From: Mesobacillus sp. AQ2
GTDB lineage: Bacteria; Bacillota; Bacilli; Bacillales; Cytobacillaceae
Length of the DNA: 64,000 nt
NCBI RefSeq assembly: GCF_030122805.1
Contig: NZ_CP126080.1
Coordinates: 2,485,001 to 2,549,000 of the forward strand
Direction of reading: 5' to 3'
Shown here in pieces: positions 16,116-32,797 of the stretch; the stretch's first letter is position 1, and every line of letters begins with the position of its first letter. Under the pieces are notes generated by a model, which was not told the DNA's origin, ran no database searches, and worked only from the letters and a program-made list of their open reading frames with translations. The position numbers were made by a program, and so were the translations under genes.

Positions 16116-17291
16116 ATGCATTTACGCCTTACAGAAGAACAAAAAATGGTCCAGAAGACCATCCGCAGGTTCGTTGAAAAAGAACTGGTGCCTTTGGAAA
16201 ATGAGGTTCTCAGGAATGAAAGAGAAGGACGGCCAAGCCTTCCGCCAGGTAAATTACAGGAGCTGCAATTAAAGGCAAAGGAAGCAGGCTTCTGGGGAAT
16301 CAATACACCTGAACAATATGGCGGTGCCGATCTTGGTCAAATGATGATGGCCATCGTATTGATGGAAATTTCAAAGACCTTCGTTCCTTTCCAATTCGGT
16401 GGGTCAGCAGATAATATTCTTTACTACGGAAACGAGGAACAAAAGCAGAAATATTTGATCCCAACCATCAACGGCGAGAAAAAGTCCTGCTTCGCAATGA
16501 CAGAGCCAGGCGCGGGATCGGATACAAGAAATATTAAAATGACCGCAGTCAAAGACGGCAATGAGTGGGTTTTGAATGGGGAAAAGACGTTTATAACGGG
16601 CGGAAATGAAGCGGACTTTGTCATGGTCATTGCCATTACCGATAAGGAGAAGCATCGTGCAACCGGCCGTGATGGAGTGACCTGCTTTATCGTCGACCGG
16701 GATATGGGCTGGAAGTCGGAATATATACATACGATGGGTGAGTGGGGTCCAGCCGGTCTTGTGTTTGATAATGTCCGCGTGCCAGAAGAAAACATTCTTG
16801 GTGAAGTTGATGGCGGTTACAAATTGGGACTTGAATGGATTGGCTTTGCAAGGTGGGTTGTTGGTGCAAGGGCAATCGGATCTGCAGAACGTCTTCTGCA
16901 AATGGCGATTGACTATTCAAAAGAACGCATCACCTTTGGCAAACCGATTGCTGAAAGACAAGCCATCCAGTGGATGATTGCTGATTCGGCGGTTGAAATC
17001 GAAGCAGCAAGGTGGCTGGTATTGAACGCCGCCTATACGCTGGATGCAGGTGAAGATAACAGGCATATGGCCTCGATGGCTAAATTGTATGGCTCGAATA
17101 TGGGGAACAGGGTAGTGGACCGCGTCATGCAAATACATGGCGGTATGGGATACACAAGGGAATTGCCAATCGAGCGCTGGTATCGTGAAGCCAGGCTTTG
17201 GAGAATTTACGATGGAACAGATGAAATCCAGCGCATGATCATCGCCAGGGACCTGTTAAAAGGACATGTAAAAATTGGGCAGTTTGTTTAA
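16116..17291 (+). CDS. Acyl-CoA dehydrogenase with Asp at the catalytic-base position
   Basis: A 391-residue ACAD. The signature CFAMTEPGAGSD and the C-terminal QIHGGMGYTRELPIERWYRE are clear. The catalytic segment reads IYDGTDEIQ, so Asp366 stands where short- and medium-chain enzymes carry Glu (YEGTSEIQ). The start follows AGGGGAGTGAC. It is the first gene after the operator at 16023 and heads the operon that continues with an SDR and a two-part hydratase. Confidence 0.94.
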   Translation: MHLRLTEEQKMVQKTIRRFVEKELVPLENEVLRNEREGRPSLPPGKLQELQLKAKEAGFWGINTPEQYGGADLGQMMMAIVLMEISKTFVPFQFGGSADNILYYGNEEQKQKYLIPTINGEKKSCFAMTEPGAGSDTRNIKMTAVKDGNEWVLNGEKTFITGGNEADFVMVIAITDKEKHRATGRDGVTCFIVDRDMGWKSEYIHTMGEWGPAGLVFDNVRVPEENILGEVDGGYKLGLEWIGFARWVVGARAIGSAERLLQMAIDYSKERITFGKPIAERQAIQWMIADSAVEIEAARWLVLNAAYTLDAGEDNRHMASMAKLYGSNMGNRVVDRVMQIHGGMGYTRELPIERWYREARLWRIYDGTDEIQRMIIARDLLKGHVKIGQFV

Positions 17292-17340: not shown

Positions 17341-18102
17341 ATGGGAAGATTTGATGGCCGAGTGGCTTTTGTAACAGGAGGAAGCCGGGGAATCGGAAAA
17401 GGAATCGTCCAGCTTTTCGCGCAAGAAGGAGCTAAAGTTGCTTTTATTGATTTGAATGAGGAAGCTCTTGCAGATACAACGAATGAACTTAATGAAAAGG
17501 GATATGAAGTCTACTCAAAGGTAGCGAATGTTACTGACGCAGAGCAAGTTGAACAAGCATTCAAAGAGGTGAAGGACACTTTTGGTTCTGTTGATATCCT
17601 GGTAAACAATGCGGGTGTTATTCGTGACAACCTTCTTTTCAAAATGACTGATTCTGACTGGCAAACTGTCATGGATGTCCATTTGAAGGGATCCTTCAAT
17701 GCAGCCAGGGCTGCACAGAAGTACATGGTCGAACAGAAATATGGCCGAATCATCAATATATCTTCCACTTCCGCACTTGGAAACCGAGGACAGGCAAACT
17801 ATGCAGCAGCCAAGGCAGGTCTTCAGGGGTTCACCAAAACCCTGGCCATTGAGCTGGGGCGTTACGGTATAACTGCGAACTCGGTCGCACCAGGGTTCAT
17901 CGAAACAGAAATGACAAAAGAAACTGCGGCCCGAATTGGCATCTCTTTTGAAGATTTGATTAAACACAGTGTGGCAGGCATTCCGGTTGGCAGAAGCGGA
18001 AAACCAGCGGATATTGCCAATGCTGTCGCATTCTTTGCAGATGAAAAATCATCCTTTGTAAATGGGCAGGTCATCTATGTAGCAGGCGGGCCTAAAAATT
18101 AA
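17341..18102 (+). CDS. FabG-like SDR, probable 3-hydroxyacyl-CoA dehydrogenase
   Basis: A 253-residue classical SDR close to beta-ketoacyl reductases. TGGSRGIGKG binds the nucleotide, NNAGVIRDNLLFKM is FabG-like, and YAAAKAG has the catalytic Tyr and Lys. In a degradative operon it more likely oxidises 3-hydroxyacyl-CoA than makes fatty acids. The ribosome site is GGGAGG. The next gene, the first hydratase half, starts 17 bases after its stop. Confidence 0.93.
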   Translation: MGRFDGRVAFVTGGSRGIGKGIVQLFAQEGAKVAFIDLNEEALADTTNELNEKGYEVYSKVANVTDAEQVEQAFKEVKDTFGSVDILVNNAGVIRDNLLFKMTDSDWQTVMDVHLKGSFNAARAAQKYMVEQKYGRIINISSTSALGNRGQANYAAAKAGLQGFTKTLAIELGRYGITANSVAPGFIETEMTKETAARIGISFEDLIKHSVAGIPVGRSGKPADIANAVAFFADEKSSFVNGQVIYVAGGPKN

Positions 18103-18119: not shown

Positions 18120-18569
18120 ATGTTCAAAGAGCATATTGGCAAGCAATCGAATAAAGTGAAAAACATGGTCGAGCGCGGCGCTGTCAAAAAGTTCGCTGAA
18201 GCCATCGGGGACTTGCATCCCATTTTCGTGGACGAAGAAACCGGCAAGAACTCCAGATACAGCAGAAACATCGCGCCGCCGACATTCCCGAGGGTTTTTG
18301 ACTATGGCGCAATCGACGGACTGAACCTTCCCAATAAAGGACTGATCCATGGTGAACAAACATACCATTACGAGCGTCCATTATTGGTAGGTGAAGAAAT
18401 CACATGCTACTCCGTAGTGAAAAATTACTTTGAAAAGAAAGGCACTCAAGGAGAGATGGGGTTCCTTGTCCTGGAGAGCTTTGGCGAGGACGAAATGGGT
18501 CAGGTGGTTTTCACCTCTACACAAACAGTAATTATTACTGAAGCAGTAAGGAAGGTGCTGATTGGATGA
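18120..18569 (+). CDS. MaoC-type dehydratase subunit (FAS1-DH/HTD2-like N-terminal hotdog)
   Basis: A 149-residue hotdog protein of the N-terminal MaoC/FAS1-DH type. The segment AIGDLHPIFVDEE is typical, and the catalytic Asp/His pair of the hydratase-2 motif is not obvious here. Such subunits pair with a catalytic MaoC partner, as in mycobacterial HadAB or ChsH1/ChsH2. The partner is the next gene, overlapping by four bases (ATGA), which indicates coupled translation and a heterodimer. Confidence 0.9.
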   Translation: MFKEHIGKQSNKVKNMVERGAVKKFAEAIGDLHPIFVDEETGKNSRYSRNIAPPTFPRVFDYGAIDGLNLPNKGLIHGEQTYHYERPLLVGEEITCYSVVKNYFEKKGTQGEMGFLVLESFGEDEMGQVVFTSTQTVIITEAVRKVLIG

Positions 18570-18973
18570 GTAGATTGGCAGAATTGAAGATTGGTGATTC
18601 ATTAAAGGAAATCCAGCTTGATCCGGTGGATCGTATCACTTTGATTAAATATGCTGGTGCATCAGGTGATTATAATCCGATTCATACAATCGACGAAGAA
18701 GCAAAGAAGGCAGGACTGCCGGGAATTATCGCACACGGCATGTGGACGATGGGCAACCTGGCCAAACTGTTTACTGATTTTCACGAGGAAGGTTTCATAC
18801 AGCACTATACGATCCGCTTCAGAGGAATGGTGTTCCTCAATGACGTTGTCACTCTCCAGGCAGAACTGGCAGAGGAAAATGAAAACAATCTCCGATTCCT
18901 CGTCCGTGCAATCAACCAAAATGGCAATGAGGTCATTAAGGGAGATGTTTCGTACCATCTGTATGCGTCTTAA
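18566..18973 (+). CDS. MaoC-type enoyl-CoA hydratase subunit (catalytic)
   Basis: A 135-residue MaoC hotdog. The hydratase-2 motif ASGDYNPIHT carries the catalytic Asp and His, followed by GIIAHGMWTMGN. It would hydrate 2-enoyl-CoA, supplying the third step of beta-oxidation beside the dehydrogenases and the FabG-like enzyme. The start overlaps the stop of the preceding subunit. A hairpin with a weak T tail follows at 18982. Confidence 0.92.
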   Translation: MSRLAELKIGDSLKEIQLDPVDRITLIKYAGASGDYNPIHTIDEEAKKAGLPGIIAHGMWTMGNLAKLFTDFHEEGFIQHYTIRFRGMVFLNDVVTLQAELAEENENNLRFLVRAINQNGNEVIKGDVSYHLYAS

Positions 18974-19219: not shown

Positions 19220-20365
19220 GTGAATTTTGACTTTAATGAGGATTTATTAGCATTAAAACGCAATGTCCGCGATTTCATCCAGGGTGAAGTCGAGCCTGTT
19301 GCGATGCAAATTGAAGAGCAAGACAAAATCCCAGAGCGGATCATCCAGCTTTCCAAGGAAATGGGACTTTTTGGACTCAGCATCCCAGAAGAATACCAAG
19401 GACTCGGTATCGGCATGGTTGAAAAATGTGCACTTTATGAGGAAATTGGCCAGACACACAACGGGTACACCACCTTAATAGGCGCGCATACCGGCATAGG
19501 CACGGTTGGCATCGTCGAAATCGGCAACGAACAGCAAAAACGCAAATACTTGCCGGCGATGGCAAGGGGTGAAAAGATTGGCGCTTTCGCCCTCACTGAG
19601 CCTGATGCTGGTTCCAATGCGGCGAACCTTAAGACGACTGCGGTCAGAAAAGGTGATAAATACGTTCTGAACGGTTTGAAGCATTATATTACAAATGCTG
19701 TAGAGGCAAGTGTTTTTACAGTGATGGCGGTAACAGACCCTGAAAAAGGGGCGAAAGGCATCACTTCCTTCATTGTTGAGAAGGACTTCCCGGGGTTCAA
19801 GCTTGGCAAAGTCGAAAAAAAGATGGGACTCAAAGGTTCTCATTCAGCTGAATTGGTTTTCGAGGATTGCGAGGTCCCTGTTGAAAATATGCTTGGAGAA
19901 GAAGGACAGGGTTATGTGAATGCCTTGAAAATACTTGCAAACGGAAGGGCGGGCCTTGCATCGCGCAATCTCGGGTCCTGCCAGAAGCTTCTCGACATGT
20001 CGGTTGCCTATGCAAAGGAAAGGATCCAGTTCGGCAAACCGATCATCAAGCAACAGGCAGTAAGCCATATGCTGGCGGAAATGGCGGTTGAAATCGAAGC
20101 GCTTCGATCACTTACATACCGAGTCGCCTGGATGGTGGATTCGGGCAAGAAGGTCATCAAGGAAGCGGCCATGCTGAAGCTATATGGTTCGGAAGTGTAT
20201 AACCGGGTGGCTGATAAAGCTGTTCAAATCCACGGAGGGCTAGGCTATATTTCGGACTATCCTGTCGAAAGGTTTTTCCGCGATGCCAGGATTACAAGGA
20301 TTTATGAGGGAACATCCGAAATCCAGAAAAACATCATAGCAGCACAGCTTGAAAAAGAATATTAA
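19220..20365 (+). CDS. Acyl-CoA dehydrogenase, short/medium-chain type
   Basis: A 381-residue ACAD with standard motifs: GAFALTEPDAGSN, a C-terminal QIHGGLGYISDYPVERF and Glu363 in YEGTSEIQ as the catalytic base. GTG 19220 follows CGAGGTGAC. It is the most canonical of the dehydrogenases here and can serve ordinary beta-oxidation steps. The ACAD11-like gene follows 57 bases later behind another operator copy. Confidence 0.94.
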   Translation: MNFDFNEDLLALKRNVRDFIQGEVEPVAMQIEEQDKIPERIIQLSKEMGLFGLSIPEEYQGLGIGMVEKCALYEEIGQTHNGYTTLIGAHTGIGTVGIVEIGNEQQKRKYLPAMARGEKIGAFALTEPDAGSNAANLKTTAVRKGDKYVLNGLKHYITNAVEASVFTVMAVTDPEKGAKGITSFIVEKDFPGFKLGKVEKKMGLKGSHSAELVFEDCEVPVENMLGEEGQGYVNALKILANGRAGLASRNLGSCQKLLDMSVAYAKERIQFGKPIIKQQAVSHMLAEMAVEIEALRSLTYRVAWMVDSGKKVIKEAAMLKLYGSEVYNRVADKAVQIHGGLGYISDYPVERFFRDARITRIYEGTSEIQKNIIAAQLEKEY

Positions 20366-20422: not shown

Positions 20423-21628
20423 ATGAATTTTGATTATACAGAAAAGGTCAAGGGATACCAGGCCAGGCTGACGGAGTTCATGGATGAATACATCTACCCG
20501 AATGAACAGGTGTATAAAGAACAAATTGACAAGAATGACCCTTTTTCAAGAGTTCCTCCGATCATGGAAGAACTGAAGGCAAAGGCAAAAGAAAAAGGTC
20601 TTTGGAATCTGTTTTTGCCAGAGAGCGAATATGGTGAAGGACTGACAAATCTCGAATACGCTCCCCTCTGCGAAATCATGGGAAGGTCCAGCATCGCGCC
20701 AGAGGTATTCAATTGTGCTGCACCGGATACGGGGAATATGGAAGTGCTGGTCCGTTACGGAACTGAAGAGCATAAAGAACAATGGCTGAAACCGCTTTTG
20801 GACGGCGAGATTCGTTCCTGCTTCTCCATGACGGAGCCGGATGTCGCTTCATCTGATGCAACGAATATCCAGGCAAGCATCCTTCGCGATGGTGACGAGT
20901 ATGTCATTAACGGGACAAAATGGTGGTCATCTGGTGCCGGCGATCCGCGCTGCAAGATTGCGATCGTAATGGGCAAAAATGACCCAAATGCTCCAAAGCA
21001 TGAGCAGCAATCTATGATTCTCGTTCCGCTGGATAGTCCGGGAGTGACAATTAAGAGAATTCTGCCAGTCTTTGGTTATGATCATGCTCCGCATGGCCAT
21101 GCCGAAATAGAATACAAGAATGTCAGAGTGCCTGCTTCCAATATGCTTTGGGATGAAGGGAAAGGCTTTGCGATTGCCCAGGGGCGTCTTGGTCCTGGCA
21201 GGATCCACCACTGCATGAGGACAATTGGAGCGGCTGAAAGAGCGCTTGAAGAAATGAGCAAACGGGTCCTGGAGAGAACCGCTTTTGGAAAAAAACTTGC
21301 CGAGCAGGGGGTCATCCAGGAATGGATCGCGGAAGCACGAATCGATATTGAGCAGTCCAGACTCCTGACATTGAAAGCTGCCTACATGATGGATACGGTC
21401 GGAAACAAAGAAGCGAAAGCAGAAATTGCGATGATCAAGGTCGTTGCGCCAAATATGGCGTTGAAAATCATCGACAGGGCGATTCAGGCTTTTGGCGCAG
21501 CCGGGGTAAGTGATGATACCACACTAGCTGCTTCCTGGGCGAATATCAGGACATTGAGGCTGGCGGATGGGCCGGATGAAGTGCACAAACGCGCAATCGC
21601 AAGGTACGAACTGAAAAAATATATGTAA
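20423..21628 (+). CDS. ACAD11-like acyl-CoA dehydrogenase
   Basis: A 401-residue dehydrogenase that closely resembles the C-terminal half of human ACAD11. Shared segments are [64 protein letters not shown] and LADGPDEVH. Asp382 in ADGPDEVH takes the place of the usual catalytic Glu, as in ACAD10/11. Known members act on 4-phosphoacyl-CoA made by an attached or separate kinase. Here the matching kinase is the gene at 23625. The start follows AAAGAGGTGG. Confidence 0.94.
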
Positions 21629-21640
21629 GGGGGAGCAGCA

Positions 21641-22414
21641 ATGCATGTATCAGAATTATTTTCACTAAAAGGAAAAGTCGCCATTGTCACTGGGGGCGGA
21701 CGCGGTCTCGGCGAACAGATCGCTGTGGGTTTTGCTGAAGCAGGAGCCAATGTTGTCGTCTGTTCGCGACGAGTCGAAGCATGTGAGGAAGTAAGCCAAA
21801 AACTAAAGGAAATCGGTGTTGAATCTCTTGCTTTGAAATGTGACATCACGAACCCGGAAGACGTGAAAAATGTCGTAGACCAAACTGTTGAGAAATTCGG
21901 CCGGATCGATATTCTCGTCAATAACAGCGGAGCATCATGGGGGGCGCCGGCGGAAGAGATGCCGCTGGAGGCCTGGCAAAAGGTAATGAATGTCAATGTG
22001 ACTGGAACATTCCTAATGTCACAGACAGCAGGTAAAGTCATGCTAGAGCAAGGTTCAGGCAAAATCATCAATATTGCATCAGTGGCGGGATTGAAAGGTT
22101 CAAACCCAAAGGTGATGGATGCGATCGGCTATAACGCCAGCAAGGGAGCCGTCATTACTTTTACAAAAGACCTGGCAGTAAAATGGGGACCGCGTGGCAT
22201 CTACGTCAATGCAATAGCACCTGGATTTTTTCCGACAAAGATGTCAAAAGGGCTGCTGGAAAAAGGCGGCCAGTCTATTCTCGAAGGGACGCCACTAAGG
22301 AAATTCGGCTCTGATACTGACCTTAAGGGAGTCGCTGTATTCCTGGCGGCACCGGCTTCAGACTACATCACGGGAGACATAGTCGTAGTGGATGGCGGGA
22401 CACATGTTCTTTAG
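21641..22414 (+). CDS. SDR family oxidoreductase
   Basis: A 257-residue classical SDR: TGGGRGLGEQI near residue 18, NNSGASWG, and YNASKGAV with the catalytic Tyr and Lys. It resembles gluconate 5-dehydrogenase and 3-oxoacyl reductases. Following the ACAD11-like gene by 12 bases, it could interconvert 4-oxo- and 4-hydroxyacyl-CoA, as LvaD does in Pseudomonas, or act on 3-hydroxyacyl-CoA. The sequence alone does not decide. Confidence 0.92.
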   Translation: MHVSELFSLKGKVAIVTGGGRGLGEQIAVGFAEAGANVVVCSRRVEACEEVSQKLKEIGVESLALKCDITNPEDVKNVVDQTVEKFGRIDILVNNSGASWGAPAEEMPLEAWQKVMNVNVTGTFLMSQTAGKVMLEQGSGKIINIASVAGLKGSNPKVMDAIGYNASKGAVITFTKDLAVKWGPRGIYVNAIAPGFFPTKMSKGLLEKGGQSILEGTPLRKFGSDTDLKGVAVFLAAPASDYITGDIVVVDGGTHVL

Positions 22415-22429
22415 AAGGGGGATACTGCT

Positions 22430-23599
22430 TTGAAAAGAGAAGCTGTAATCGTTTCGGCCGTCAGGTCAGCCATCGGCAGGCAGGGCGGAGCGCTTGCCAC
22501 GGTACCTGCCCATGTCTTTGGAGCAGAAGTCATAAAGTAAGCTATCAGGAGGGCGAGTGTCCAGCCTGAAATGATCGAAGATATAATCATGGGGAATGTC
22601 ATCAGCGGCGGAGGCAATATTGCCCGGCTGACCGCCCTGCAAACAGGACTATCACTCGAATTGCCCGGCCTGACGATTGACCGGCAGTGCGGATCGGGAA
22701 TCAACGCAGTTACTCTCGCGGCCCAGGCGATCAGGGCAGGTGATGGGGATATCTATATTGCAGGCGGGATTGAAAGCATGAGCCGTGCACCATACTTGAT
22801 GGATAAACCCGACAAACCATACAGCCCCGTTCCCCCAAGCTTCCGGAAGTCCCGGCTGTCACCGGAGGAAATCGGCAATCCGCCAATGGGCATCACAGCA
22901 GAAAACCTTGCAGAAAAGTACTCGATCTCAAGAGAAGAACAGGATGAATTCGCCCTGGCAAGCCAGCATAAAATGGCTGCCGCGATGGCTGATGGACGTT
23001 TTGACAAGCAAATTGTTCCAATCACGATTCCGGTCCGAAAAGGGGAGCCAATCGTTTTTAAAAAGGATGAACACCCAAGGCCGCAAACGACAATTGAAGC
23101 ACTTTCCAAGTTGCCGCCAGCCTTTTTACAGGGAGGAACGGTTACAGCCGGCAGCAGTTCCGGCTTGAATGATGCTGCAGCCGCACTAGTCATAATGTCA
23201 AGAGAGAAAGCTCAGGAATTAGGTGTGAAACCGATGGCCGTGATCAGGGAACAGGCAATAGCAGGGGTCGACCCGAACATCATGGGCATCGGTCCTGTAC
23301 CAGCCGTTAGAAAAGTTCTTGAAAGATCAGGTCTTAATCTTGACGACATGGATCTGATTGAAATTAACGAAGCTTTCGCAGCCCAGGTGATTGCCTGCGA
23401 CCGGGACCTCAATATGGATATGGAAAAGGTCAACGTGAATGGCGGTGCTATTGCCCATGGCCATCCACTGGGTGCTACTGGAGCGATCCTGATGACAAAA
23501 GCCGTCTATGAACTTGAAAGAAGAGGCGGGCGTTACGCAATGATTACGGCCTGCATCGGCGGTGGCCAGGGAATCGCGGCTATTATTGAACGTGAATAA
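22430..23599 (+). pseudogene. Thiolase (acetyl-CoA acyltransferase) with an in-frame TAA
   Basis: The frame from TTG 22430 (behind AGAAGGGGG) encodes a full 389-residue thiolase but for TAA at 22538-22540, codon 37, where relatives have a residue such as Glu (VIK-stop-AIRRA). Downstream, all catalytic residues remain: Cys87 in DRQCGSG, His345 in AHGHPLG and Cys375 in ACIGGGQG. A restart at ATG 22571 would lack the first 47 residues, including the first strand and helix of the thiolase fold. It is probably a recent nonsense mutation, a sequencing error or read-through. Its loss would leave this operon without its own thiolysis step. Confidence 0.85.
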
Positions 23600-23624
23600 A
23601 TTTTCAAAAGGAGGAATGGCACTT

Positions 23625-24683
23625 ATGGCTTCTGATACGATACCAATCAGGCAAGGAGAAGAGCTGGATACAAGTGTTATCGAAAAGTACCTGAGGGAGC
23701 AATTGCCTGATCTTCCAGAAGGCATTCTAACAATCGACCAGTTCAGTTTCGGTAAATCAAATCTCACCTACCAGCTTAAAATCGCAGAATGGGAGGCGGT
23801 TTTAAGGCGGCCGCCTCTCGGTTCTGTTGCGCCAAAAGCGCATGATATGGAAAGGGAGTACAAGATCCTTAAAGAGATTAGCCCTCACTTTGCGGCTGCT
23901 CCCAGGCCCTATTTATTTGCTGATGAAAATGTCATCGGCAGTCCGTTTTTCGTGATGGAAAGAAAGCGCGGCATAGTCCTTGATACGGACTTTCCTGAAG
24001 GCATCATGCCGACTGATGAAATGTGCAGATCCCTTTCGGAAACGATGGTCGACCACCTTGTTGAGCTGCACAGCATCGATTATACGAAGACCAGGCTTAC
24101 CGAAATGACAAAACCTGAAGGCTTCATGGAACGGCAGGTCATCGGCTGGATTCGCCGTTATGAGCGGGCGGAAACAGATATTGTCGAGGGCGTGGAGCAC
24201 TTAAAGCAATGGATGCTGAAGAATGTTTCGGAATCCAAAACGCCAGCGATCATTCATTACGATTATAAACTGAATAATTCCATGTTCAATGAGGATTTAA
24301 CGAAGATGGTCGGTCTTTTCGACTGGGAGATGACGACGGTAGGTGACCCGCTGGCCGATCTGGGTGTGGCGATGAGCTACTGGATTCAACCGGACGATTC
24401 CGATTTGTTAAAAAGAGGGATGGGAAAACCGCCGGTCACAGTGATACCAGGGTTCATGACCCGTGATGACTTCATGGAGCGGTATGCGAAGAAAAGCGGC
24501 ATGGACCTTGCGAACATGAATTTTTACCAAACATTTGCCTATTTCAAGCTTGCCGTCATTTGCCAGCAAATTTATTACAGGTGGAAAAAGGGCCAGACAA
24601 AGGATAGCAGGTTTGCGCATCTTGATGCATTTGTCAGCAGCCTGATCCAATATGCGTTATATACCGCAACAAAGAAAGGGTGA
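23625..24683 (+). CDS. ACAD10/11-type acyl-CoA kinase (APH-fold phosphotransferase)
   Basis: A 352-residue aminoglycoside-phosphotransferase-fold kinase like the N-terminal domain of ACAD10/11. It has FSFGKSNLTY, RRPPLG, HDMEREYKIL, the catalytic loop IIHYDYKLNN (HYD for HGD) and the Mg site FDWEMTTVGDPLADLG. ATG 23625 was chosen over ATG 23616, which lies one base from AAAAGGAGG. With the ACAD11-like dehydrogenase at 20423 it makes a split version of the fused animal enzyme. It would phosphorylate a 4-hydroxyacyl-CoA, like LvaA in levulinate catabolism (inference). It is not an antibiotic resistance gene. Confidence 0.92.
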   Translation: MASDTIPIRQGEELDTSVIEKYLREQLPDLPEGILTIDQFSFGKSNLTYQLKIAEWEAVLRRPPLGSVAPKAHDMEREYKILKEISPHFAAAPRPYLFADENVIGSPFFVMERKRGIVLDTDFPEGIMPTDEMCRSLSETMVDHLVELHSIDYTKTRLTEMTKPEGFMERQVIGWIRRYERAETDIVEGVEHLKQWMLKNVSESKTPAIIHYDYKLNNSMFNEDLTKMVGLFDWEMTTVGDPLADLGVAMSYWIQPDDSDLLKRGMGKPPVTVIPGFMTRDDFMERYAKKSGMDLANMNFYQTFAYFKLAVICQQIYYRWKKGQTKDSRFAHLDAFVSSLIQYALYTATKKG

Positions 24684-24688
24684 AGGAC

Positions 24689-26407
24689 ATGATGAAGATT
24701 CACCTTTTGCTAAAAAAAGAGGACATCGACAAGCAAAAAATGGCCGATAACAAAATCGCTGTCGTCTTTGATGTTCTTCTGGCAACTTCCACGATCACCT
24801 CTGCTCTGGAGTTCGGTGCCAAAGAAGTGATTCCGGTCCTTGATGGAAAGGAAGCGGAAAAAGAAGCTGAAGACAGGGAAAAAGAACGTTTCTTACTCGT
24901 CGGCGAGTATCAGGGGAAAACAATAGATGGGTTTCTGTCACCAAATCCTCTGGAATTGAGAGAAAAAATCGAGGGTAAGTCCGTCATCCTGTCGACCACC
25001 AATGGAACCGTCGCGCTTAAAAATTCATCAGAAGCAAAGGCTGTTTATGCAGTGTCGCTGATGAACTGCAAGGCAGTAGCCAATCATATTTTAAAAGATT
25101 ACCAGGGAGAGACGATTGTCGTCGTCTGTTCTGGTTCTTCGAACGAGTTCAATGTAGAGGATTTCCATGGAGCCGGATGCTTCATTGACTGCCTTATAAA
25201 GGAATATGACAAGGAATTTTTCCTGACGGATTCTGCTTATGCCGCGCGCTGTTTCTACCATGCCCACAATCAAAACAGTGATGATATTCTAAAAGACTCC
25301 AGAGTCGGCCGGATGCTAAGTAAACATGGCTTTGACCAGGAAATTGAATTTGTTTCACAGCAAAATGTTTTTGCCACGGTTCCAATACTGATAGACAGAA
25401 AGAGGATTATTGACGCGGCAAATGATAGCGTTTACAAAAAAGGAGAGGAAAGTACGTCATTGAAGCCGGAAGTAAAAGCGTTGCTTGAAGCCTATGCTCA
25501 AAATCCAGTGCCGCCCTTGGAGCAGCTTCCGCTTGCAGAAGCAAGAAAGGGGTTTGAACAGTCTGCAAAACTTATGAGCAAGGCTGAGAAACTTGCAAAC
25601 ACAAAGGATTTCAAAATCCAGGGATACAAGGATGAGATTAAGATAAGACTTTATTCACCAGACGGAACAGATGGAACCAAGCTTCCCGCGATTGTCTACT
25701 ACCATGGAGGCGGCTGGGTGATCGGCAATATCGAAACACATGATGCCCTTTGCCACACTTTATCCAATGAAGCTGGATGTATCGTAGTTTCCGTGGATTA
25801 TAGTCTTGCACCTGAAAGCAAGTTCCCGGTTGCAGTCGAGGATTCATATCTAGCTGCCAAATGGGTGTTTGAAAACGCTGATGAAATGAACATCGATGAA
25901 AACTTTATCGCTGTCGCAGGAGATAGCGCGGGAGGAAACCTGGCAGCAGTGGTAAGTTACCTTGCTGTCCAGAGACAGACACCGTCGATTGCTTATCAAA
26001 TGTTGTTTTACCCGTCTACAGGCTTTGAATATACTCCATCCTATGAAAAATACGGTGAAGGCTATTATTTGACCAAGTCTACAATGACCTGGTTCCGCGA
26101 ACAATACTTAAACTCACCTGAAGATACGCAAAATCCACTGGCCGCGCCGTTGTTGATCCCAGATGAGATTACCCCGCTGCTGCCGCCGGCTTATATCCTG
26201 ACTGCGGAGCTTGATCCACTATGTGATGGCGGAGAGCATTTTGCTGCGAAATTAAAGAATGCAGGCGTAGAAACCGAGTATGTCTGCGCTCCGGGGATGC
26301 TCCATGGTTTCCTTGGGATGACTGAATATTTGCCCGATGGAAAGGAAGCAATCAAGGCTGCTGCGGAAGCCATTAAAAAAAGAAGTGCTCTTAATCCGGT
26401 TGAATAA
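24689..26407 (+). CDS. Fusion of ComB-type phosphatase and HSL-type alpha/beta hydrolase
   Basis: A 572-residue open frame. Residues 1 to about 245 match the ComB 2-phosphosulfolactate phosphatase family (DVLLATSTI, STTNGTVALK, VVCSGSSNEFNVEDFHGAG). Residues from about 258 are a complete hormone-sensitive-lipase-type esterase: YYHGGGWVIG oxyanion hole, GDSAGGN nucleophile elbow, ELDPLCDGGE Asp and MLHGFLGM His. The junction carries its own ribosome site (AGGAGAGG, 25441-25448) and TTG 25460, so the esterase may also be made alone and the fusion may come from a lost stop codon. The start was set at ATG 24689, six bases after the kinase stop. Confidence 0.88.
   Translation: MMKIHLLLKKEDIDKQKMADNKIAVVFDVLLATSTITSALEFGAKEVIPVLDGKEAEKEAEDREKERFLLVGEYQGKTIDGFLSPNPLELREKIEGKSVILSTTNGTVALKNSSEAKAVYAVSLMNCKAVANHILKDYQGETIVVVCSGSSNEFNVEDFHGAGCFIDCLIKEYDKEFFLTDSAYAARCFYHAHNQNSDDILKDSRVGRMLSKHGFDQEIEFVSQQNVFATVPILIDRKRIIDAANDSVYKKGEESTSLKPEVKALLEAYAQNPVPPLEQLPLAEARKGFEQSAKLMSKAEKLANTKDFKIQGYKDEIKIRLYSPDGTDGTKLPAIVYYHGGGWVIGNIETHDALCHTLSNEAGCIVVSVDYSLAPESKFPVAVEDSYLAAKWVFENADEMNIDENFIAVAGDSAGGNLAAVVSYLAVQRQTPSIAYQMLFYPSTGFEYTPSYEKYGEGYYLTKSTMTWFREQYLNSPEDTQNPLAAPLLIPDEITPLLPPAYILTAELDPLCDGGEHFAAKLKNAGVETEYVCAPGMLHGFLGMTEYLPDGKEAIKAAAEAIKKRSALNPVE
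25441..25462 (+). promoter_or_regulatory. Internal ribosome binding site and TTG start inside the fusion
   Basis: AAAAAAGGAGAGG ends at 25448, and TTG 25460 lies 11 bases on, in frame with the esterase domain. This is the expected start of a stand-alone hydrolase gene. Confidence 0.55.
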
Positions 26408-26430
26408 TAATCTTTGAGGAGGACTAGACG

Positions 26431-28107
26431 ATGCCTAATCTACACTTTGATCACTGGCCGAAAATCTCTAAATCACTGACATTGCCCGAAACATCACTCT
26501 ATGAAAATCTTAAAGTCAGTGCGGAGAGATATCCGGACCAAAGCGCAATCTATTACTATGGAAACGCCATCTCATACAGTGAGCTTAACGAAGAAGTTAA
26601 TTCGCTTGCTGGATTCCTCCAGCAGAAACTTGGGGTTGCAAAGGGAGACAGAGTTTTATTATTCATGCAAAATTCTCCCCAGTTCGTCATTGGATTCTAT
26701 GCAATTTCACGAGCTGATGCAGTCGTCGTGCCCATCAATCCAATGCTGACTGCAGATGAATTGAGCTTTTACATTAAAGATTGTGAGATTACTTCGGCGT
26801 TGGTTGGGCAGGAGCTTTATGACAAAGTTGAGCCGCTGATTGGTTCTACCCCATTACAGAATGTCGTGGTTGCTGCCTATTCTGATTACAAAGGAGGGGA
26901 TTTTAACGGTGTCGTGCCTCCAGAGGTCGAGGCAGCCAGGGTAGTTTACGAACAGCCAGTGCACTTCCATTGGAAAGAAGCCATTGCAGCACAATATGAG
27001 CCAGGGACCCATACGTCAAAAGCGGATGATATTGTAGTGCTTCCGTATACATCCGGGACAACCGGGCTTCCAAAAGGCTGCATGCATACCAATCGGACCG
27101 TTCAGGCGAATACCATCGGTGCCTATCACTGGTCCAGCTCCACAACAAGTGCCGTTCACCTTATGACACTGCCATTATTCCATGTGACCGGGATGGTACA
27201 CAGCATGCATATGCCGATTTTTTCCGGAAGCACGATGGTCCTGATGACGAGATGGAACCGGGAGGCAGCCGTGGAACTGATTAAATCCCAGGGATGCACG
27301 CACTGGGTAGCGATCGCTACGATGATTGTCGATTTCCTGGCAAATCCAAAACTGGACCCAAAAGATATTGCCACGTTGACATCGATATCAGGCGGGGGTG
27401 CAGCTCTTCCAGAAGCAGTGGGGGAAAAGCTTTACAAACTTACTGGCCTGCGATTTGTAGAAGGATATGGACTTTCCGAAACAATCGCCCAAACACACTT
27501 CAATCCGCCAGATCGTCCTAAAATGCAGTGCCTTGGGATTCCATCCTTCGACGTAGACGCGAGGGTTATTGAACCGGCTACGGGAAAAGAACTTGGTCCT
27601 GGTGAAGCAGGAGAAATTGTCGTAAATGGCCCACAGGTGATGGTCGGCTACTACAACAGGGAGGACGAAAACAGGAATTCCTTCATTGAGATTGATGGCA
27701 AGAAGTTTTTCCGGACAGGCGATATTGGCCGGTATGATGAAGAAGGCTACTATTTCATGGTCGACCGTGTTAAAAGGATGATCAACGCATCTGGATATAA
27801 GGTTTGGCCTACAGAGGTTGAATCTTACCTTTACAAGCATCCGGCCATCCAGCAAGCAGTTGTAGTAGGAATACCTGACCCAAGAAGGGGCGAATCGGTA
27901 AAAGCATTTGTCATTTTAAATGATGGATATGAAGGCAAAATCAGCGAAGAAGAAATCATTGAATGGTCCAAACAGCATATGGCGGCTTATAAATACCCTC
28001 GCGAGGTAGAATTCAGGACGCAATTCCCAATGACCAGCAGCGGCAAGATCCTGTGGCGGAAGCTTCAGGAGGAAGAGAGGGAAAAAGCTGAAAATCAGGT
28101 GAGGTAA
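26431..28107 (+). CDS. Acyl-CoA synthetase (AMP-forming)
   Basis: A 558-residue ANL ligase: LPYTSGTTGLPKGCMHTNR, EGYGLSETIAQTH, FFRTGDIGRYDEEGYYFMVD, then MINASGYKVWPTEVE and the terminal lysine in SSGKILWRK. The longer N-terminus and the ASGYKVWPTE segment set it apart from the ligases at 1 and 6195. The ribosome site is TGAGGAGGAC. It probably activates the acid imported by the ABC system downstream or released by the esterase upstream. Confidence 0.95.
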   Translation: MPNLHFDHWPKISKSLTLPETSLYENLKVSAERYPDQSAIYYYGNAISYSELNEEVNSLAGFLQQKLGVAKGDRVLLFMQNSPQFVIGFYAISRADAVVVPINPMLTADELSFYIKDCEITSALVGQELYDKVEPLIGSTPLQNVVVAAYSDYKGGDFNGVVPPEVEAARVVYEQPVHFHWKEAIAAQYEPGTHTSKADDIVVLPYTSGTTGLPKGCMHTNRTVQANTIGAYHWSSSTTSAVHLMTLPLFHVTGMVHSMHMPIFSGSTMVLMTRWNREAAVELIKSQGCTHWVAIATMIVDFLANPKLDPKDIATLTSISGGGAALPEAVGEKLYKLTGLRFVEGYGLSETIAQTHFNPPDRPKMQCLGIPSFDVDARVIEPATGKELGPGEAGEIVVNGPQVMVGYYNREDENRNSFIEIDGKKFFRTGDIGRYDEEGYYFMVDRVKRMINASGYKVWPTEVESYLYKHPAIQQAVVVGIPDPRRGESVKAFVILNDGYEGKISEEEIIEWSKQHMAAYKYPREVEFRTQFPMTSSGKILWRKLQEEEREKAENQVR

Positions 28108-28151
28108 AAAGGCTCCGTCACGTCAGCTATTAAATTATAAGGAGGATCTTG

Positions 28152-29015
28152 ATGGAGATTTTGGTTCAGCAGCTGTTCAATGGCCTTACCATTGGCAGTG
28201 TTTATGCTCTTGTCGCTCTTGGACTCACTCTTGTTTACGGTATCCTTCATATCCCGAACTTTGCCCATGGCGCTTTATACATGATGGGTGGATATATCAC
28301 CTTGATGATGATGGTGCAATACGGCCTTCATTACTGGCTGGCCATTCTTGTTTCTGTCATCGCGGTAGGATTAATCGGCGTTCTGATGGAGCGACTGGTC
28401 TTCCATCCCTTAAGACATGCCCCGCCGATTCATGACAAAATCGCAGCAATTGGAATTCTGTTATTTTTGGAAGCCTTCGCGCAATTCATCTGGGGCGCGG
28501 ATTACCAAATGATGCCGACACCTTACGGCCAGGTCGTCCAGGTGTTCGGCCTGACCTTCACGATGCAAAGACTGCTGATCATCATTGCAGCAATTGGTGT
28601 AATGGTACTGCTTTACCTGTTCCTGAAAAAGACGTTCACGGGTGCGACGATCATTGCGATGTCCCAGGAACGGGATGGAGCGAATCTTGTAGGAATCAAT
28701 ACTAACCGCGTGGCAATGCTAACATTCCTGATATCCGGAGGGCTTGCAGCAATAGCCAGCTCTCTTGCAGCGCCTATAAATCTCGTTTTTCCTGGAATGG
28801 GCCAGCTGGTAATCTTAAAGGCTTTTGTCATCATCATTCTGGGAGGGATGGGCAGCATTCCCGGAGCGATTATTGGAGGCTATATTTTAGGTTTCAGTGA
28901 AAGTCTCGGCGCCACGTACATTTCTAATGATTACAAAGACATCATAGCGTTCATCCTGCTGGTCATCATTTTAACAGTAAAACCAACCGGCCTGTTTGCC
29001 AAGGGGGGACATTGA
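28152..29015 (+). CDS. livH: Branched-chain amino acid-type ABC transporter permease, LivH family
   Basis: A 287-residue integral membrane permease with about eight hydrophobic segments. The LivH signature NGLTIGSVYALVALGLTLVYG is split at the N-terminus; ILGGMGSIPGAIIGG is near the end. ATG 28152 follows GGAGGATC. It forms the first half of the membrane channel with the next gene, overlapping by one base (TGATG). In this setting the cargo may be a carboxylic acid rather than an amino acid, as for other Liv-type systems in catabolic clusters (inference). Confidence 0.93.
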   Translation: MEILVQQLFNGLTIGSVYALVALGLTLVYGILHIPNFAHGALYMMGGYITLMMMVQYGLHYWLAILVSVIAVGLIGVLMERLVFHPLRHAPPIHDKIAAIGILLFLEAFAQFIWGADYQMMPTPYGQVVQVFGLTFTMQRLLIIIAAIGVMVLLYLFLKKTFTGATIIAMSQERDGANLVGINTNRVAMLTFLISGGLAAIASSLAAPINLVFPGMGQLVILKAFVIIILGGMGSIPGAIIGGYILGFSESLGATYISNDYKDIIAFILLVIILTVKPTGLFAKGGH

Positions 29016-30040
29016 TGGCGAAGGTAATCAATAAACGTACTATTATACTTGCACTTTTGTTATTTGCGATTGCCTTTCCATTCGTTACCCAAAATGATTA
29101 TTTCATCCATGTAATGACTCTGTCGTTCATCTGGATGATCGGTGTCTATGGGCTTAACCTATTGGCGGGCTATACAGGCTATCTCTCGCTGGCGCATGCT
29201 GGGTTCTTTGCGATCGGTGCGTATTCATTGGGCCTCCTGACGGTAAAGGCCCAGATAAATTTCTGGCTTGCTTTTGTTCTGTCGCTTCTTATCACCTCAA
29301 TTATTGGATTTTTAGTCGGTGTCATTGCCCTAAGGACCAAGGAACATTTCTTCGCCATCTATACCCTATGTGTCGGGTATATCATCTACCTTGTCATTGA
29401 TAAATGGGACAGTTTGACAGAAGGCGTCCGCGGTTTGATCGGTATCCCCGCGCCGGCAAATATTGGACCGATCTCATTCGAGTCATCCCTGTCACAATAT
29501 TATCTTGTTTTGGCCATATTGCTTCTCGTGATCCTGTTTGTTTATCGAATCGTGCATTCCCTGACCGGAAGGACGTATATTGCGATTCGCAATAGTGAAG
29601 ACCTTGCGCAGACTATCGGAATCTCAACAATGAAAAATAAATTGGAAGTTTTCGTGCTTTCCACTTTTTTCGCCGGACTGTCAGGAGCTCTATATGCGTC
29701 ATTCATCCGTTTCATCGGGCCAGATATCGGAAATATCGTTATCACATTTGATTTGCTGACATACCTCCTGATTGGCGGGATTGGCACGTTATCCGGACCT
29801 ATTGTCGGCACCGTTTTGGTTGTATGGATTTCCCAGCAGCTGCAGTTCCTTCAGGATTACCGGATGCTCATTTTCGGACCTGTGCTGACACTCCTGGTCA
29901 TATTTTACCCTCGGGGAATCGCAGGGGCAATTGGCGGCTGGAGCTTAAAGCGCGCCGAAAAGAAGCTGCATAAAGCTGAGATAAAAGAGGGATATTCACA
30001 AAATACGATCAGTACAGACAAACAGGTGAAGGAGGGGTAA
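29015..30040 (+). CDS. livM: Branched-chain amino acid-type ABC transporter permease, LivM family
   Basis: A 341-residue second permease: LNLLAGYTGYLSLAHAGFFA, ALRTKEHFFAIYTL, RNSEDLAQTIGI and GGIGTLSGPIVG are LivM hallmarks. ATG 29015 overlaps the livH stop. The last 40 residues are hydrophilic and cytoplasmic. It is followed two bases later by the ATPase gene, so the five-gene transporter is one transcription unit. Confidence 0.94.
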   Translation: MAKVINKRTIILALLLFAIAFPFVTQNDYFIHVMTLSFIWMIGVYGLNLLAGYTGYLSLAHAGFFAIGAYSLGLLTVKAQINFWLAFVLSLLITSIIGFLVGVIALRTKEHFFAIYTLCVGYIIYLVIDKWDSLTEGVRGLIGIPAPANIGPISFESSLSQYYLVLAILLLVILFVYRIVHSLTGRTYIAIRNSEDLAQTIGISTMKNKLEVFVLSTFFAGLSGALYASFIRFIGPDIGNIVITFDLLTYLLIGGIGTLSGPIVGTVLVVWISQQLQFLQDYRMLIFGPVLTLLVIFYPRGIAGAIGGWSLKRAEKKLHKAEIKEGYSQNTISTDKQVKEG

Positions 30041-30042
30041 GG

Positions 30043-30807
30043 ATGTTCCTGGAAACGAAGAATTTAACGAAGAAATTTGGCGGTTTGACAGCTGTTAACG
30101 ATGTTGATTTTTCGATTGAAAAAGGAAAAATCAATGCGATCATAGGTCCGAATGGAGCTGGCAAGTCCACTTTTTTCAATCTCATCAGCGGCTTTCACCC
30201 TCCTACATCAGGCCATATTATTTTTAAAGGCAGGGATATTACAAATCTGCCATCAAATAAAATTGCAGAACTGGGTATAGCACGTACCTTTCAAACTACC
30301 AATCTGTTTGAACAATCCACTGTCCTTGACAATGTGACCGTAGGACATCGATTGAGGACAAACTCCAATTTGCTCGATGCAGTGTTCAGATCGAAAAGAT
30401 TAAAGCGGGAAGAAGAGAAATGCCGCGAAAAGGCGTTTGAAGTAATCGAATTTGCAGGATTGGAAAAAGTGGCTGACAAACTTGTTGGAAGCCTCACGCA
30501 GGAAGAAAAGAAACGGACGGCATTTGCGCTGGCATTAGCAACAGATCCTGAAATTGTGTTCCTTGATGAGCCTGCAGCTGGTGTGAATCCTGATGAGACA
30601 GAGGGATTGGCTCTTTTGATGAAAAAAATGGCCGATAAAGGGATTACTGTCTGTTTGATTGAGCACAAAATGCAAATGATCATGAAGCTTGCAGATAAAA
30701 TAATGGTCCTCAATTACGGAGAAAAAATCGCCGAGGGAAATGCAGAAGAAATCAGGAATAATCCTACTGTAATCAAGGCCTACCTGGGAGGGAGCGCCAG
30801 TGCTTAA
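30043..30807 (+). CDS. livG: ABC transporter ATP-binding protein, LivG family
   Basis: A 254-residue ATPase. Walker A is GPNGAGKS, Walker B with the catalytic Glu is IVFLDEPAAG, and the H-loop is LIEHKM. The ABC signature is unusual: SLTQEEKKRTAFA instead of the common LSGGQ(Q/R)R, which may lower or alter ATPase coupling. It overlaps the next ATPase gene by eight bases. Confidence 0.93.
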   Translation: MFLETKNLTKKFGGLTAVNDVDFSIEKGKINAIIGPNGAGKSTFFNLISGFHPPTSGHIIFKGRDITNLPSNKIAELGIARTFQTTNLFEQSTVLDNVTVGHRLRTNSNLLDAVFRSKRLKREEEKCREKAFEVIEFAGLEKVADKLVGSLTQEEKKRTAFALALATDPEIVFLDEPAAGVNPDETEGLALLMKKMADKGITVCLIEHKMQMIMKLADKIMVLNYGEKIAEGNAEEIRNNPTVIKAYLGGSASA

Positions 30808-31507
30808 ACTGCGAGATGTTAAAGTGAATTATGGGAGCTACACAGCGGTAGACAAGGTGAACCTCGATGTCTCTAAAGGGGAAATCGTTGTCCTTCTGGG
30901 TGCCAATGGTGCCGGGAAAAGTACAATTTTCAAGACAATCAGCGGATTGAATAAAGTTTCTTCAGGAGACATTCTGTTTGAGGGAAAATCCCTGAACAAA
31001 ACCACACCGGATAGAATCGTCCAATCAGGAATTGCCCAATGCGCGGAAGGCCGAAAGCTGTTTCCATCAATGACCATTCAGGAGAATTTGAGAATGGGCG
31101 CTTATGTCCATAGAAAGCATAAAAAAGGAATAAAGGAATCGATGAATCATGTGTTTGAACTGTTTCCGATCCTGGAAGAAAAACAGCATGATATGGCAGG
31201 TTCACTCAGCGGGGGGCAGCAGCAGATGCTTGCAATTGGGAGGGCGTTGATGGCAAAGCCAAAATTGCTGCTTCTTGATGAGCCGTCTATCGGACTTGCA
31301 CCACTTATTGTTGAGCAAATGTTTGACGTGATCCAGACCATCAATCGGGAGGGAACGACAATCCTTCTGGCCGAACAAAATGCGAATGCTGCCTTGAAAA
31401 TTGCAGATAAAGGCTATGTATTCGAAAACGGATCTGTAGTACTGGAAGGGACTTCTGATGAATTGTTTGCTAATGATGAAATAAAAAAGGCATATATCGG
31501 TGCCTAG
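30800..31507 (+). CDS. livF: ABC transporter ATP-binding protein, LivF family
   Basis: A 235-residue ATPase with Walker A GANGAGKS, signature SLSGGQQQMLAIGRAL, Walker B LLLLDEPSIGLAP and H-loop region LAEQNANAAL. It pairs with the LivG-type subunit. The signature here is canonical, in contrast to its partner. After it comes a 90-base gap with a possible CodY box, then the binding protein. Confidence 0.94.
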   Translation: MLKLRDVKVNYGSYTAVDKVNLDVSKGEIVVLLGANGAGKSTIFKTISGLNKVSSGDILFEGKSLNKTTPDRIVQSGIAQCAEGRKLFPSMTIQENLRMGAYVHRKHKKGIKESMNHVFELFPILEEKQHDMAGSLSGGQQQMLAIGRALMAKPKLLLLDEPSIGLAPLIVEQMFDVIQTINREGTTILLAEQNANAALKIADKGYVFENGSVVLEGTSDELFANDEIKKAYIGA

Positions 31508-31554
31508 AACTGCTTCTTTCTTTTGGGGAGGTGGTTGGCTAGCAGTACAAATAT

Positions 31555-31569
31555 CAATTTCTGAATATT
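31555..31569. promoter_or_regulatory. Possible CodY box before the binding-protein gene
   Basis: CAATTTCTGAATATT matches the consensus AATTTTCWGAAAATT at 12 of 15 positions. It lies 28 bases before the lipoprotein start. CodY often represses Liv-type transporters in Bacillus. A three-mismatch match in AT-rich DNA is only suggestive. Confidence 0.3.
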
Positions 31570-31597
31570 GAAAATTCAAACTCAAGGGGGAAAACCA

Positions 31598-32797
31598 ATG
31601 AAGAAGTCCAAATTGGTGTTGGTCTTAAGTGTGATGTTTGCCTTAATTTTCAGTCTAGCCGCTTGCAACAGCTCAGAAAAAACAGATACAGGAGGAAAGG
31701 GTTCTGAAGCAGCGTCTGGTGAAGGGACAATAAATATTGGATATACTGGACCGCTGAGCGGACCTGCCGCGTTTTATGGAGAAAGGACATTGAATGGTGT
31801 CCAGATGGCAACAGAGGAAATCAACAATGCCGGCGGAATTGAAGTGAATGGCAAGAAGTATAAATTCAATGTCGTCTCCCTGGACGACAAGTATTTGCCT
31901 AATGAAGCCGGTGCGAATGCGAAAAGACTCATGCAGGAAAATAAGACACCCATCATTTTCACACCGCACAGCGGCGGTGTGGCTGCTTTGCAGGTGTTCA
32001 ACCAGCAGGATAAATTCATAATTGGCGCATACACAAGTGAACCAAAGGTAACGGAAGTCGGAAATAAATTAACGGTCAGGATCCCTCCTCGTTATGATGG
32101 CTATCTTGAGCCATTCACGAATTATACGATGGAGAAGTTCGGCAAAAAAATCGCATTCCTGCCAACTTCATCTCAGTATGGAAAGGATTGGGCTGAAAAG
32201 CTCCAGCCTCACTGGGAAAAATCCGGTGGTGAAGTCGTGTACAATTCATCAATCGACTTTGCCAAGGATACAGATTTCTTTACCATCATCACAAATGCAC
32301 TAAAGGAAAAACCAGACGTACTTTTTATCGGCGGACCGTCTGAACCAACTGCAAAAGTTGCCAAGCAGGCCAGAGAACTTGGCTTCAAGGGTGGTTTTAT
32401 CGTGATGGACCAGGCAAAGTTCGATGAAATGAAGAAGGTGACAGGTACGTATGAGGTCCTAAACGGCGCAATTGGTGTCATGCCGCTAGTCAATTCCGAA
32501 AGTCCCGGCATTCCCGACTTTGTAAAGAACTACAATACAAAATACAAAGAAGACCCAGGCTCTGAAGCTGGCTTGAATTACATTGCCATGCATGTTTTCG
32601 CCGAAGCCATAAAAGCGGCAGGGTCTGTGGATGACCCTGAAAAAATCATGGCCCATATGCAGGATGGGTTAGATAACCTGCCAGATGACAAAAAAGTTTA
32701 TGTCATTCCAAAAATCGACCCGAATGGCGGATTTGAAGGTGAATTGATTGTTGCGGCAATTGAGGATGGAAAAATTGTTCCAATCAAAGCAGATTAA
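31598..32797 (+). CDS. ABC transporter substrate-binding lipoprotein, LivJ/LivK family
   Basis: A 399-residue periplasmic-binding-fold (type I) lipoprotein. The signal peptide ends in the lipobox LAAC (lipidated Cys23), followed by a Ser/Gly/Thr-rich linker. The mature part begins INIGYTGPLSGPAAFYGERT, as in LivJ-like receptors. ATG 31598 follows CAAGGGGG. It is last in the transporter operon and is closed by a strong terminator. Ligand specificity cannot be read off; an organic acid is plausible. Confidence 0.94.
   Translation: MKKSKLVLVLSVMFALIFSLAACNSSEKTDTGGKGSEAASGEGTINIGYTGPLSGPAAFYGERTLNGVQMATEEINNAGGIEVNGKKYKFNVVSLDDKYLPNEAGANAKRLMQENKTPIIFTPHSGGVAALQVFNQQDKFIIGAYTSEPKVTEVGNKLTVRIPPRYDGYLEPFTNYTMEKFGKKIAFLPTSSQYGKDWAEKLQPHWEKSGGEVVYNSSIDFAKDTDFFTIITNALKEKPDVLFIGGPSEPTAKVAKQARELGFKGGFIVMDQAKFDEMKKVTGTYEVLNGAIGVMPLVNSESPGIPDFVKNYNTKYKEDPGSEAGLNYIAMHVFAEAIKAAGSVDDPEKIMAHMQDGLDNLPDDKKVYVIPKIDPNGGFEGELIVAAIEDGKIVPIKAD

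Follow-up and report, generated by a model that had tools for sequence, protein, structure and literature searches.

A 64,000-nucleotide stretch of the Mesobacillus sp. AQ2 genome (contig NZ_CP126080.1, positions 2,485,001 to 2,549,000; hereafter the window), taken from a single-contig assembly of 4.80 Mb, encodes a predicted APH-fold 4-hydroxyacyl-CoA kinase, an ACAD11-type acyl-CoA dehydrogenase (ACAD) and, directly downstream of the kinase, a protein whose N-terminal part belongs to the ComB (2-phosphosulfolactate phosphatase) family. Our preferred reading, to which we assign a probability of roughly 55%, is that kinase and dehydrogenase form a kinase/eliminase module served by a dedicated ComB phosphatase that acts on the 4-phospho intermediate or limits its formation. 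That the kinase-dehydrogenase core is a 4-hydroxyacyl-CoA dehydroxylation module we consider highly probable. The kinase/eliminase pair is already known, also in split form, and a histidine phosphatase next to such a kinase has been published; a pairing of the kinase with ComB appears to be new. Among the titles and abstracts listed in our literature searches, whose scope left out most subscription journals, none mentions ComB linked to this kinase.

In the proposed pathway, the ligase encoded just downstream would form the CoA ester of a 4-hydroxy acid, the kinase would phosphorylate the 4-hydroxyl, and the ACAD11-type flavoenzyme would eliminate the phosphate to give a 2-enoyl-CoA that could enter beta-oxidation via the MaoC, short-chain dehydrogenase (SDR) and ACAD genes of the cluster. 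The ComB domain, encoded with the kinase, would serve as a dedicated phosphatase partner, most likely hydrolysing any 4-phosphoacyl-CoA (or its free 4-phospho acid) left uncleared by the dehydrogenase and returning it to the 4-hydroxy form; such an intermediate might carry the wrong stereoisomer or chain, or might accumulate under overloaded flux. We infer each of these reactions, and that of ComB above all, from what can be observed in the sequence, namely gene order, domains, conserved residues and recurrent linkage.

Organization of the locus

All genes assigned between 16116 and 32797 lie on the + strand. From the ACAD gene at 19220 to the kinase gene, the successive intergenic gaps measure 57, 12, 15 and 25 bases, the GTG start codon of the ComB-containing gene (24680) overlaps the stop codon of the kinase gene, and a further 23 bases separate the former from the ligase gene and 41 bases the ligase gene from the first permease gene. 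A single transcription unit is likely. A promoter scan of the window returned the background level (25 found, 26.0 expected), and a terminator scan gave a modest excess (25 against 17.8, standard deviation 4.3).

The kinase gene occupies 23625–24683, and that of the dehydrogenase 20423–21628. These positions, like those of the SDR and ligase genes discussed below, agree with the initial annotation of the window, which had described a split ACAD11-like system. Its central observation holds: a separate kinase and ACAD11-type dehydrogenase with the residues expected for phosphorylation and elimination are predicted in one tight gene string. The split form itself is not new, and the interpretation that accompanied the observation is supported in part.

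Recurrence of ComB beside the kinase

To describe how often the two genes occur together, we use three samples. The first is a set of 61 genomes from the order, counting that of the window, in which we listed kinases with at least 44% identity (n = 41, the split copy in G004 counted as one). The second comprises 80 named loci, retrieved with the kinase as the sole query and ranking highest among at least 579 confirmed relatives. The third comprises 14 plasmid kinase loci selected for taxonomic spread from 40 of 248 records; together, the latter two form a set of 94 loci. Of 249 Bacillota genomes searched for the kinase, five had a match at E ≤ 1e-40, the window's own among them, too few for statistics.

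Within the order, ComB lies directly 3′ of the kinase gene for 31 of the 41 kinases (partial in G015). Sixteen of these 31 belong to the same genus as the window; among kinases of other genera, 15 of 25 show the pairing. Among the 80 named loci, ComB adjoins the kinase in 34 (31 after it, 3 before) and lies within 2 kb in 4 more. We then consider the immediate same-strand neighbours in the 94 loci, which exist downstream in 77 and upstream in 78; Pfam scans covered 72 and 68 of these, omitting L136 and L186–L189 downstream and L080, L123, L152, L178–L180, L182, L184, L188 and L189 upstream, and the open reading frames (ORFs) chosen for the scan lay on the wrong strand in several GC-rich loci, including L177. 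The commonest downstream family is PF04029, the ComB family (31 of 72), followed by acyl-CoA dehydrogenases (14), enoyl-CoA hydratases (8) and histidine phosphatases (3).

The arrangement is not fixed. The ComB gene comes before that of the kinase in Geomicrobium and in two Rubrobacter-type loci (Actinomycetota), and the order kinase-ACAD-ComB occurs in Aneurinibacillus and Ammoniphilus. Because several gene orders and two phyla show it, the pairing survives rearrangement and spans more than one phylum. The surrounding genes vary widely among species, with the kinase as the usual constant partner of ComB. The recurrence of ComB beside the kinase in so many relatives suggests a built-in brake or repair step.

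Several results weigh against a dedicated phosphatase. ComB is not directly downstream of 10 of the 41 kinases (two each in G019, G058 and G040 and one each in G056, G053, G043 and G032), one of the two in G058 having a ComB gene 2.5 kb away. It was not found in 42 of the 80 named loci, some of which end at contig edges, nor in any of the 14 plasmid kinase loci, and plasmid records with a ComB match number 6 versus 248 with a kinase match. Conversely, three members of the ComB subfamily (L049, L054 and L065) have no kinase in the retrieved stretch. On the kinase tree of 96 rows, a quick version, the ComB label needs 19 changes; ComB has thus often been lost or gained, and an accessory role therefore fits better than a compulsory step. 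The substrates known for ComB are 2-phospho hydroxy acids, not 4-phosphoacyl-CoA, and the loss of a family Arg discussed below may have removed a catalytic residue, in which case the domain would be a pseudo-phosphatase. Because the kinase sits in a sister branch to that of ACAD11, we only infer the position at which it phosphorylates its substrate. Finally, the S form is accepted by the ACAD domain of ACAD10 as well (PMC11342911), so that a need for stereochemical repair is not proven.

We rejected ComB as essential for the route on account of the 42 loci in which it was not found. The same absences, with an unbroken fusion of ComB to its esterase in 3 of 61 genomes, would suit another account, that this is, as initially proposed, an ordinary operon for 4-hydroxy acids or levulinate in which the kinase-dehydrogenase pair alone accounts for the core chemistry, ComB is a bystander and its fusion accidental. 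A bystander would not adjoin 31 of 41 kinases, nor keep to them in several gene orders and two phyla, and we regard this account as very improbable.

The ACAD11-type dehydrogenase

The initial annotation had recognized the protein at 20423–21628 as an ACAD11-type dehydrogenase with a catalytic Asp, and structure database searches bear this out. Its best matches in the PDB are 4hr3, a putative acyl-CoA dehydrogenase (475 bits), human ACAD11 (2wbi, 465 bits) and mouse ACAD11 (8v3u, 461 bits; 8v3v, 458 bits), and the fifth, a different ACAD, reaches only 147 bits. As judged from sequence, the ACAD11 matches of this protein and of the kinase are far beyond chance. According to PMC12440821, R626, H634 and R637 of mouse ACAD11 contact the 4-phosphate, R631 is conserved in ACADs and D753 is catalytic. 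The corresponding residues here are R255, R260, H263, R266 and D382: the Arg/Arg/His/Arg set of the active-site helix falls in a 13-residue stretch from residue 254 with spacing equal to that of mouse ACAD11, and the Asp lies in the motif ADGPDE at 381, as against YEGTSE or YEGTRE with the usual Glu. On this basis we assign the protein as an ACAD11/LvaC-type enzyme that would eliminate phosphate from 4-phosphoacyl-CoA.

Neither of these two patterns is matched by the ACADs at 11972, 16116 and 19220 of the cluster (3 of 3). Both are matched by 54 of the 62 ACAD11-type proteins in the 80 named kinase loci; the departures concern the first pattern only in L123 and L143, the second only in L138, and both in L139, L140, L146, L147 and L151.

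The kinase and its place in the family

The predicted kinase is intact, belongs to Pfam family APH and matches the kinase domain of mouse ACAD11 at 167 bits; its closest solved structure is PDB 9o56 (480 bits). D213, N218 and R170 align with D220, N225 and R176 of mouse ACAD11, the catalytic Asp and Asn and the Arg of the CoA cavity, with the mouse correspondence counted along the alignment, and none of the three varies in 31 aligned rows. R86 of the ACAD11 work has no certain counterpart, the Arg that precedes the αC Glu counting to 84 there.

A second tree, of 34 rows, is a completed, unrooted tree of a chosen subset and contains neither ACAD10 nor LvaA. In it, a branch with 100/100 support parts the window kinase from mouse ACAD11, 3dxp and six plasmid kinases. 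The initial annotation had called this protein the kinase half of ACAD11, and had named beforehand a position outside the ACAD10/11 kinases as telling against it. The broad family and the conserved Asp, Asn and Arg stand; on this tree the kinase itself falls in a sister branch to mouse ACAD11, so that the objection applies, if narrowly. It also differs from 25-hydroxysteroid kinase (9fsg, 9ft5), with 19% identity over the structural alignment, and the substrate of that enzyme is a steroid rather than an acyl-CoA.

A locus of Lentibacillus persicus (L138, 8001–14037) encodes two such kinases, followed by an ACAD11-type gene and then ComB.

The ComB domain and its subfamily

The gene at 24680–26407, which the initial annotation had listed as a plain esterase, in fact encodes a fusion, and its ComB-kinase link had been overlooked. 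The ComB domain (24680–25447) covers residues 12–237 and has the fold and the Pfam PF04029 profile match of the family; among the matches listed for the fusion protein, no ComB model of NCBIfam reached its cut-off. A hormone-sensitive lipase (HSL)-type esterase of the LipP1 family makes up the C-terminal part (25448–26407; residues 263–564). Unbroken fusions occur in G000, G021 and G001, and we rejected the fusion as a unit of selection: within the genus, ComB and the esterase are mostly separate neighbours, and outside it the esterase is usually not adjacent.

We compared 72 ComB proteins, namely that of the window and every sufficiently long ComB match from loci L033–L155. The set includes the three members from kinase-free stretches, five that lie 1–3 kb from the kinase (L050, L138, L144, L146 and L147) and one gene twice (L062 and L154). 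D31, E76, N108, T110, N129, C150, E160 and D161 are identical throughout. In four classical ComB rows, D31, N108, T110, N129 and D161 are present in 4 of 4 and E76 and C150 in 3 of 4, and position 160 is Glu or Asp. Position 34 behaves differently: the Arg of the DxLRATS-type motif, present in all four classical rows and in all five of DVIRAFT type, occurs in 0 of 72, being replaced by Leu in 64 (the window's domain has Leu34), Phe in 5, Met in 2 and Ile in 1, and it is likewise never Arg in the best 120 of 1934 database relatives. That this Arg defines ComB comes from our own comparison and not from a published definition. Thinned to 60 rows by removing near-identical genus copies, the set occupies one side of a single branch in a ComB tree (88/79; 92% of bootstraps). 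The subfamily therefore differs from classical ComB (PF04029; 1vr0, 2yyv, 2z0j) in its Leu, Met, Ile or Phe for Arg, in its mostly kinase-adjacent genes and in its own tree branch. We rejected a literal 2-phosphosulfolactate phosphatase function because of this loss in 72 of 72, the separate branch and the kinase neighbours.

The strongest competing explanation is that ComB is a non-catalytic pseudo-phosphatase that binds and tunes the kinase or senses the phospho-intermediate, as an analogue of LvaB or of the haloacid dehalogenase (HAD)-fold domain of ACAD10. The lost Arg would fit, as would the overlap of the kinase and fusion genes in the window, and there is precedent in PMC11342911 and PMC6692424: the HAD domain of ACAD10 holds back its kinase although its own phosphatase activity is negligible, and LvaB binds LvaA. 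Yet no member has lost any of the remaining main polar and acidic positions of the family, a pattern unusual in dead enzymes; the histidine phosphatases next to other kinases belong to a different family, making a common binding surface unlikely; and ComB is frequently not found at kinase loci. We consider this explanation unlikely, if a serious one.

ComB could also act on some other phosphate ester of the same diet, such as a 2-phospho hydroxy acid or a sulfonate, with the kinase link reflecting shared regulation only. The substrate class known for the family is in favour of this, and so are the widely differing neighbours. Against it, the kinase is usually the partner kept when neighbours change, and a tree branch separates the ComB set from classical ComB; we judge it improbable. 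A dedicated phosphatase remains our preferred reading.

A separate ComB-family group from related genomes (L156, L159, L161–L169, L173 and L174) carries DVLSFSS or a variant of it where DxLRATS would stand, with Ser or Cys at position 34 and Arg at the position of E76, each in 13 of 13.

Other phosphatases beside the kinase

An annotated histidine phosphatase adjoins the kinase in two Deinococcus records, a Streptomyces and a Sulfitobacter plasmid. A profile, built from 4 of the 8 loci that it matches, added four named loci, from Planctomycetales and Acidobacteriota (L148 and L152, adjacent) and from Deltaproteobacteria and KSB1 (L153 and L155, at least one gene away). A histidine phosphatase is thus near the kinase in 8 of the 94 loci, and ComB is present in none of the eight; the probability of such non-overlap by chance is 0.013 if loci are independent, a figure confounded by phylogeny. 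On the 96-row quick tree, the deep split puts the Sulfitobacter kinase on the side of ACAD11 and the seven others on that of the window kinase, as the 34-row tree also does for six of these seven.

Upstream of the kinase, 4HBT thioesterases are commonest (23 of 68 scanned; L076–L155, L176 and L187). Together, a thioesterase of this kind and a phosphatase could recycle stalled 4-phosphoacyl-CoA.

Comparison with known systems

ACAD10 and ACAD11 resemble the window's system in combining an APH-fold kinase with a dehydrogenase that has the R/R/H/R set and catalytic Asp (PMC12440821, PMC11342911), and ACAD10 has a phosphatase-fold domain beside its kinase. They differ in that the window encodes two separate proteins, and in that its phosphatase-fold partner is ComB, joined to an esterase rather than to the kinase. 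Split bacterial pairs are described, namely LvaA/LvaC and, from Burkholderia, orthologues each able to take the place of its counterpart domain of ACAD10 in vitro (PMC11342911). The Pseudomonas lva operon (LvaA–LvaE) likewise has its kinase and dehydrogenase as individual proteins, accompanied by an SDR and an acyl-CoA ligase, a comparison made at the level of gene content; the window differs in having ComB by the kinase and in its added MaoC, extra ACAD and ABC importer genes. LvaB (DUF6285, PF19802) had no match in 21 of 21 genomes, the window's own among them, nor was it among 25 of 28 downstream and 25 of 27 upstream neighbour families. The levulinate cluster of Pseudomonas citronellolis LA18T also has no lvaB, and a histidine phosphatase gene adjoins its lvaA homologue; the authors left its function open (PMC6692424). 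That protein is of the histidine phosphatase superfamily, a family and fold other than those of ComB.

It was not until 2024–2025 that ACAD10/11 were shown to break down 4-hydroxy acids via a phosphorylated CoA ester, and two published puzzles bear on our finding: the purpose of the phosphatase-fold domain retained by ACAD10, and the role of the phosphatase in the P. citronellolis cluster. With a widespread bacterial pairing of the kinase and yet another phosphatase family, unrelated to those two, the question can be tested with small proteins. We tentatively propose, at slightly less than even odds, that kinase-linked ComB is a new subfamily of enzymes or regulators, marked by the lost family Arg, that controls the 4-hydroxyacyl-CoA phospho-intermediate, and that ComB, histidine phosphatase and HAD are three unrelated phosphatase folds recruited to one kinase family in bacteria and mammals. 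If so, some brake or repair step acting on 4-phosphoacyl-CoA would be needed generally, and the automatic name "2-phosphosulfolactate phosphatase" on many such Bacillales genes would be corrected.

Remaining genes of the cluster

A complete route had been proposed initially, which overstates what this genome encodes: the acetyl-CoA acyltransferase (thiolase) gene at 22430–23599 (+ strand; profile search and reading frame) is interrupted by an in-frame TAA at 22538–22540 (codon 37), its frame opening again from 22571. This is either a pseudogene or a sequence error. The frame is open in the 10 checked of 15 genus loci, and in L045 and L047 (2 of 15) no thiolase match was found at the corresponding place; because of these absences and the stop here, the thiolase step is possibly supplied from elsewhere.

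The other parts named at the outset, a ligase, two MaoC halves, dehydrogenases and an ABC importer, are present in the cluster according to profile searches and ORFs. Profile searches assign an SDR (adh_short_C2), for which an LvaD-like role had been suggested initially, to 21641–22414, a frequent neighbour of the ACAD11-type gene across loci whose best NCBIfam model is the gluconate 5-dehydrogenase subfamily (405 bits, cut-off 279), and an AMP-forming acyl-CoA ligase of the PRK08314 subfamily to 26431–28107. Upstream lie a conventional ACAD with a catalytic-type Glu (YEGTSE; 19220–20365), a MaoC-type dehydratase in two halves (18120–18973; FAS1_DH_region at 18120–18569, MaoC at 18566–18973) and a FabG-like SDR, named from its sequence only (17341–18102). 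The ACAD at 16116–17291 has Asp at the usual Glu position (YDGTDE), yet is without the ACAD11 phosphate-binding pattern. Downstream, 28149–32797 encodes a branched-chain-amino-acid-type ABC importer of two permeases, two ATPases and a binding protein, of which family searches covered the first permease and the binding protein. Importer, ligase and esterase would be compatible with lactones, esters or branched hydroxy acids as candidate substrates.

Among the upstream catabolic genes, 4169–5167 encodes a member of the phosphotriesterase family (PF02126), a family that includes lactonases, and would fit lactone use. An ORF with a metallo-beta-lactamase fold (5388–6152) matches its profile from position 48, its N-terminal part perhaps missing or in another frame. 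An R2-like ligand-binding oxidase (7738–8631; NF006202, 338.5 bits, cut-off 315) adjoins genes for an acyl-CoA ligase, an aldehyde dehydrogenase and an iron alcohol dehydrogenase.

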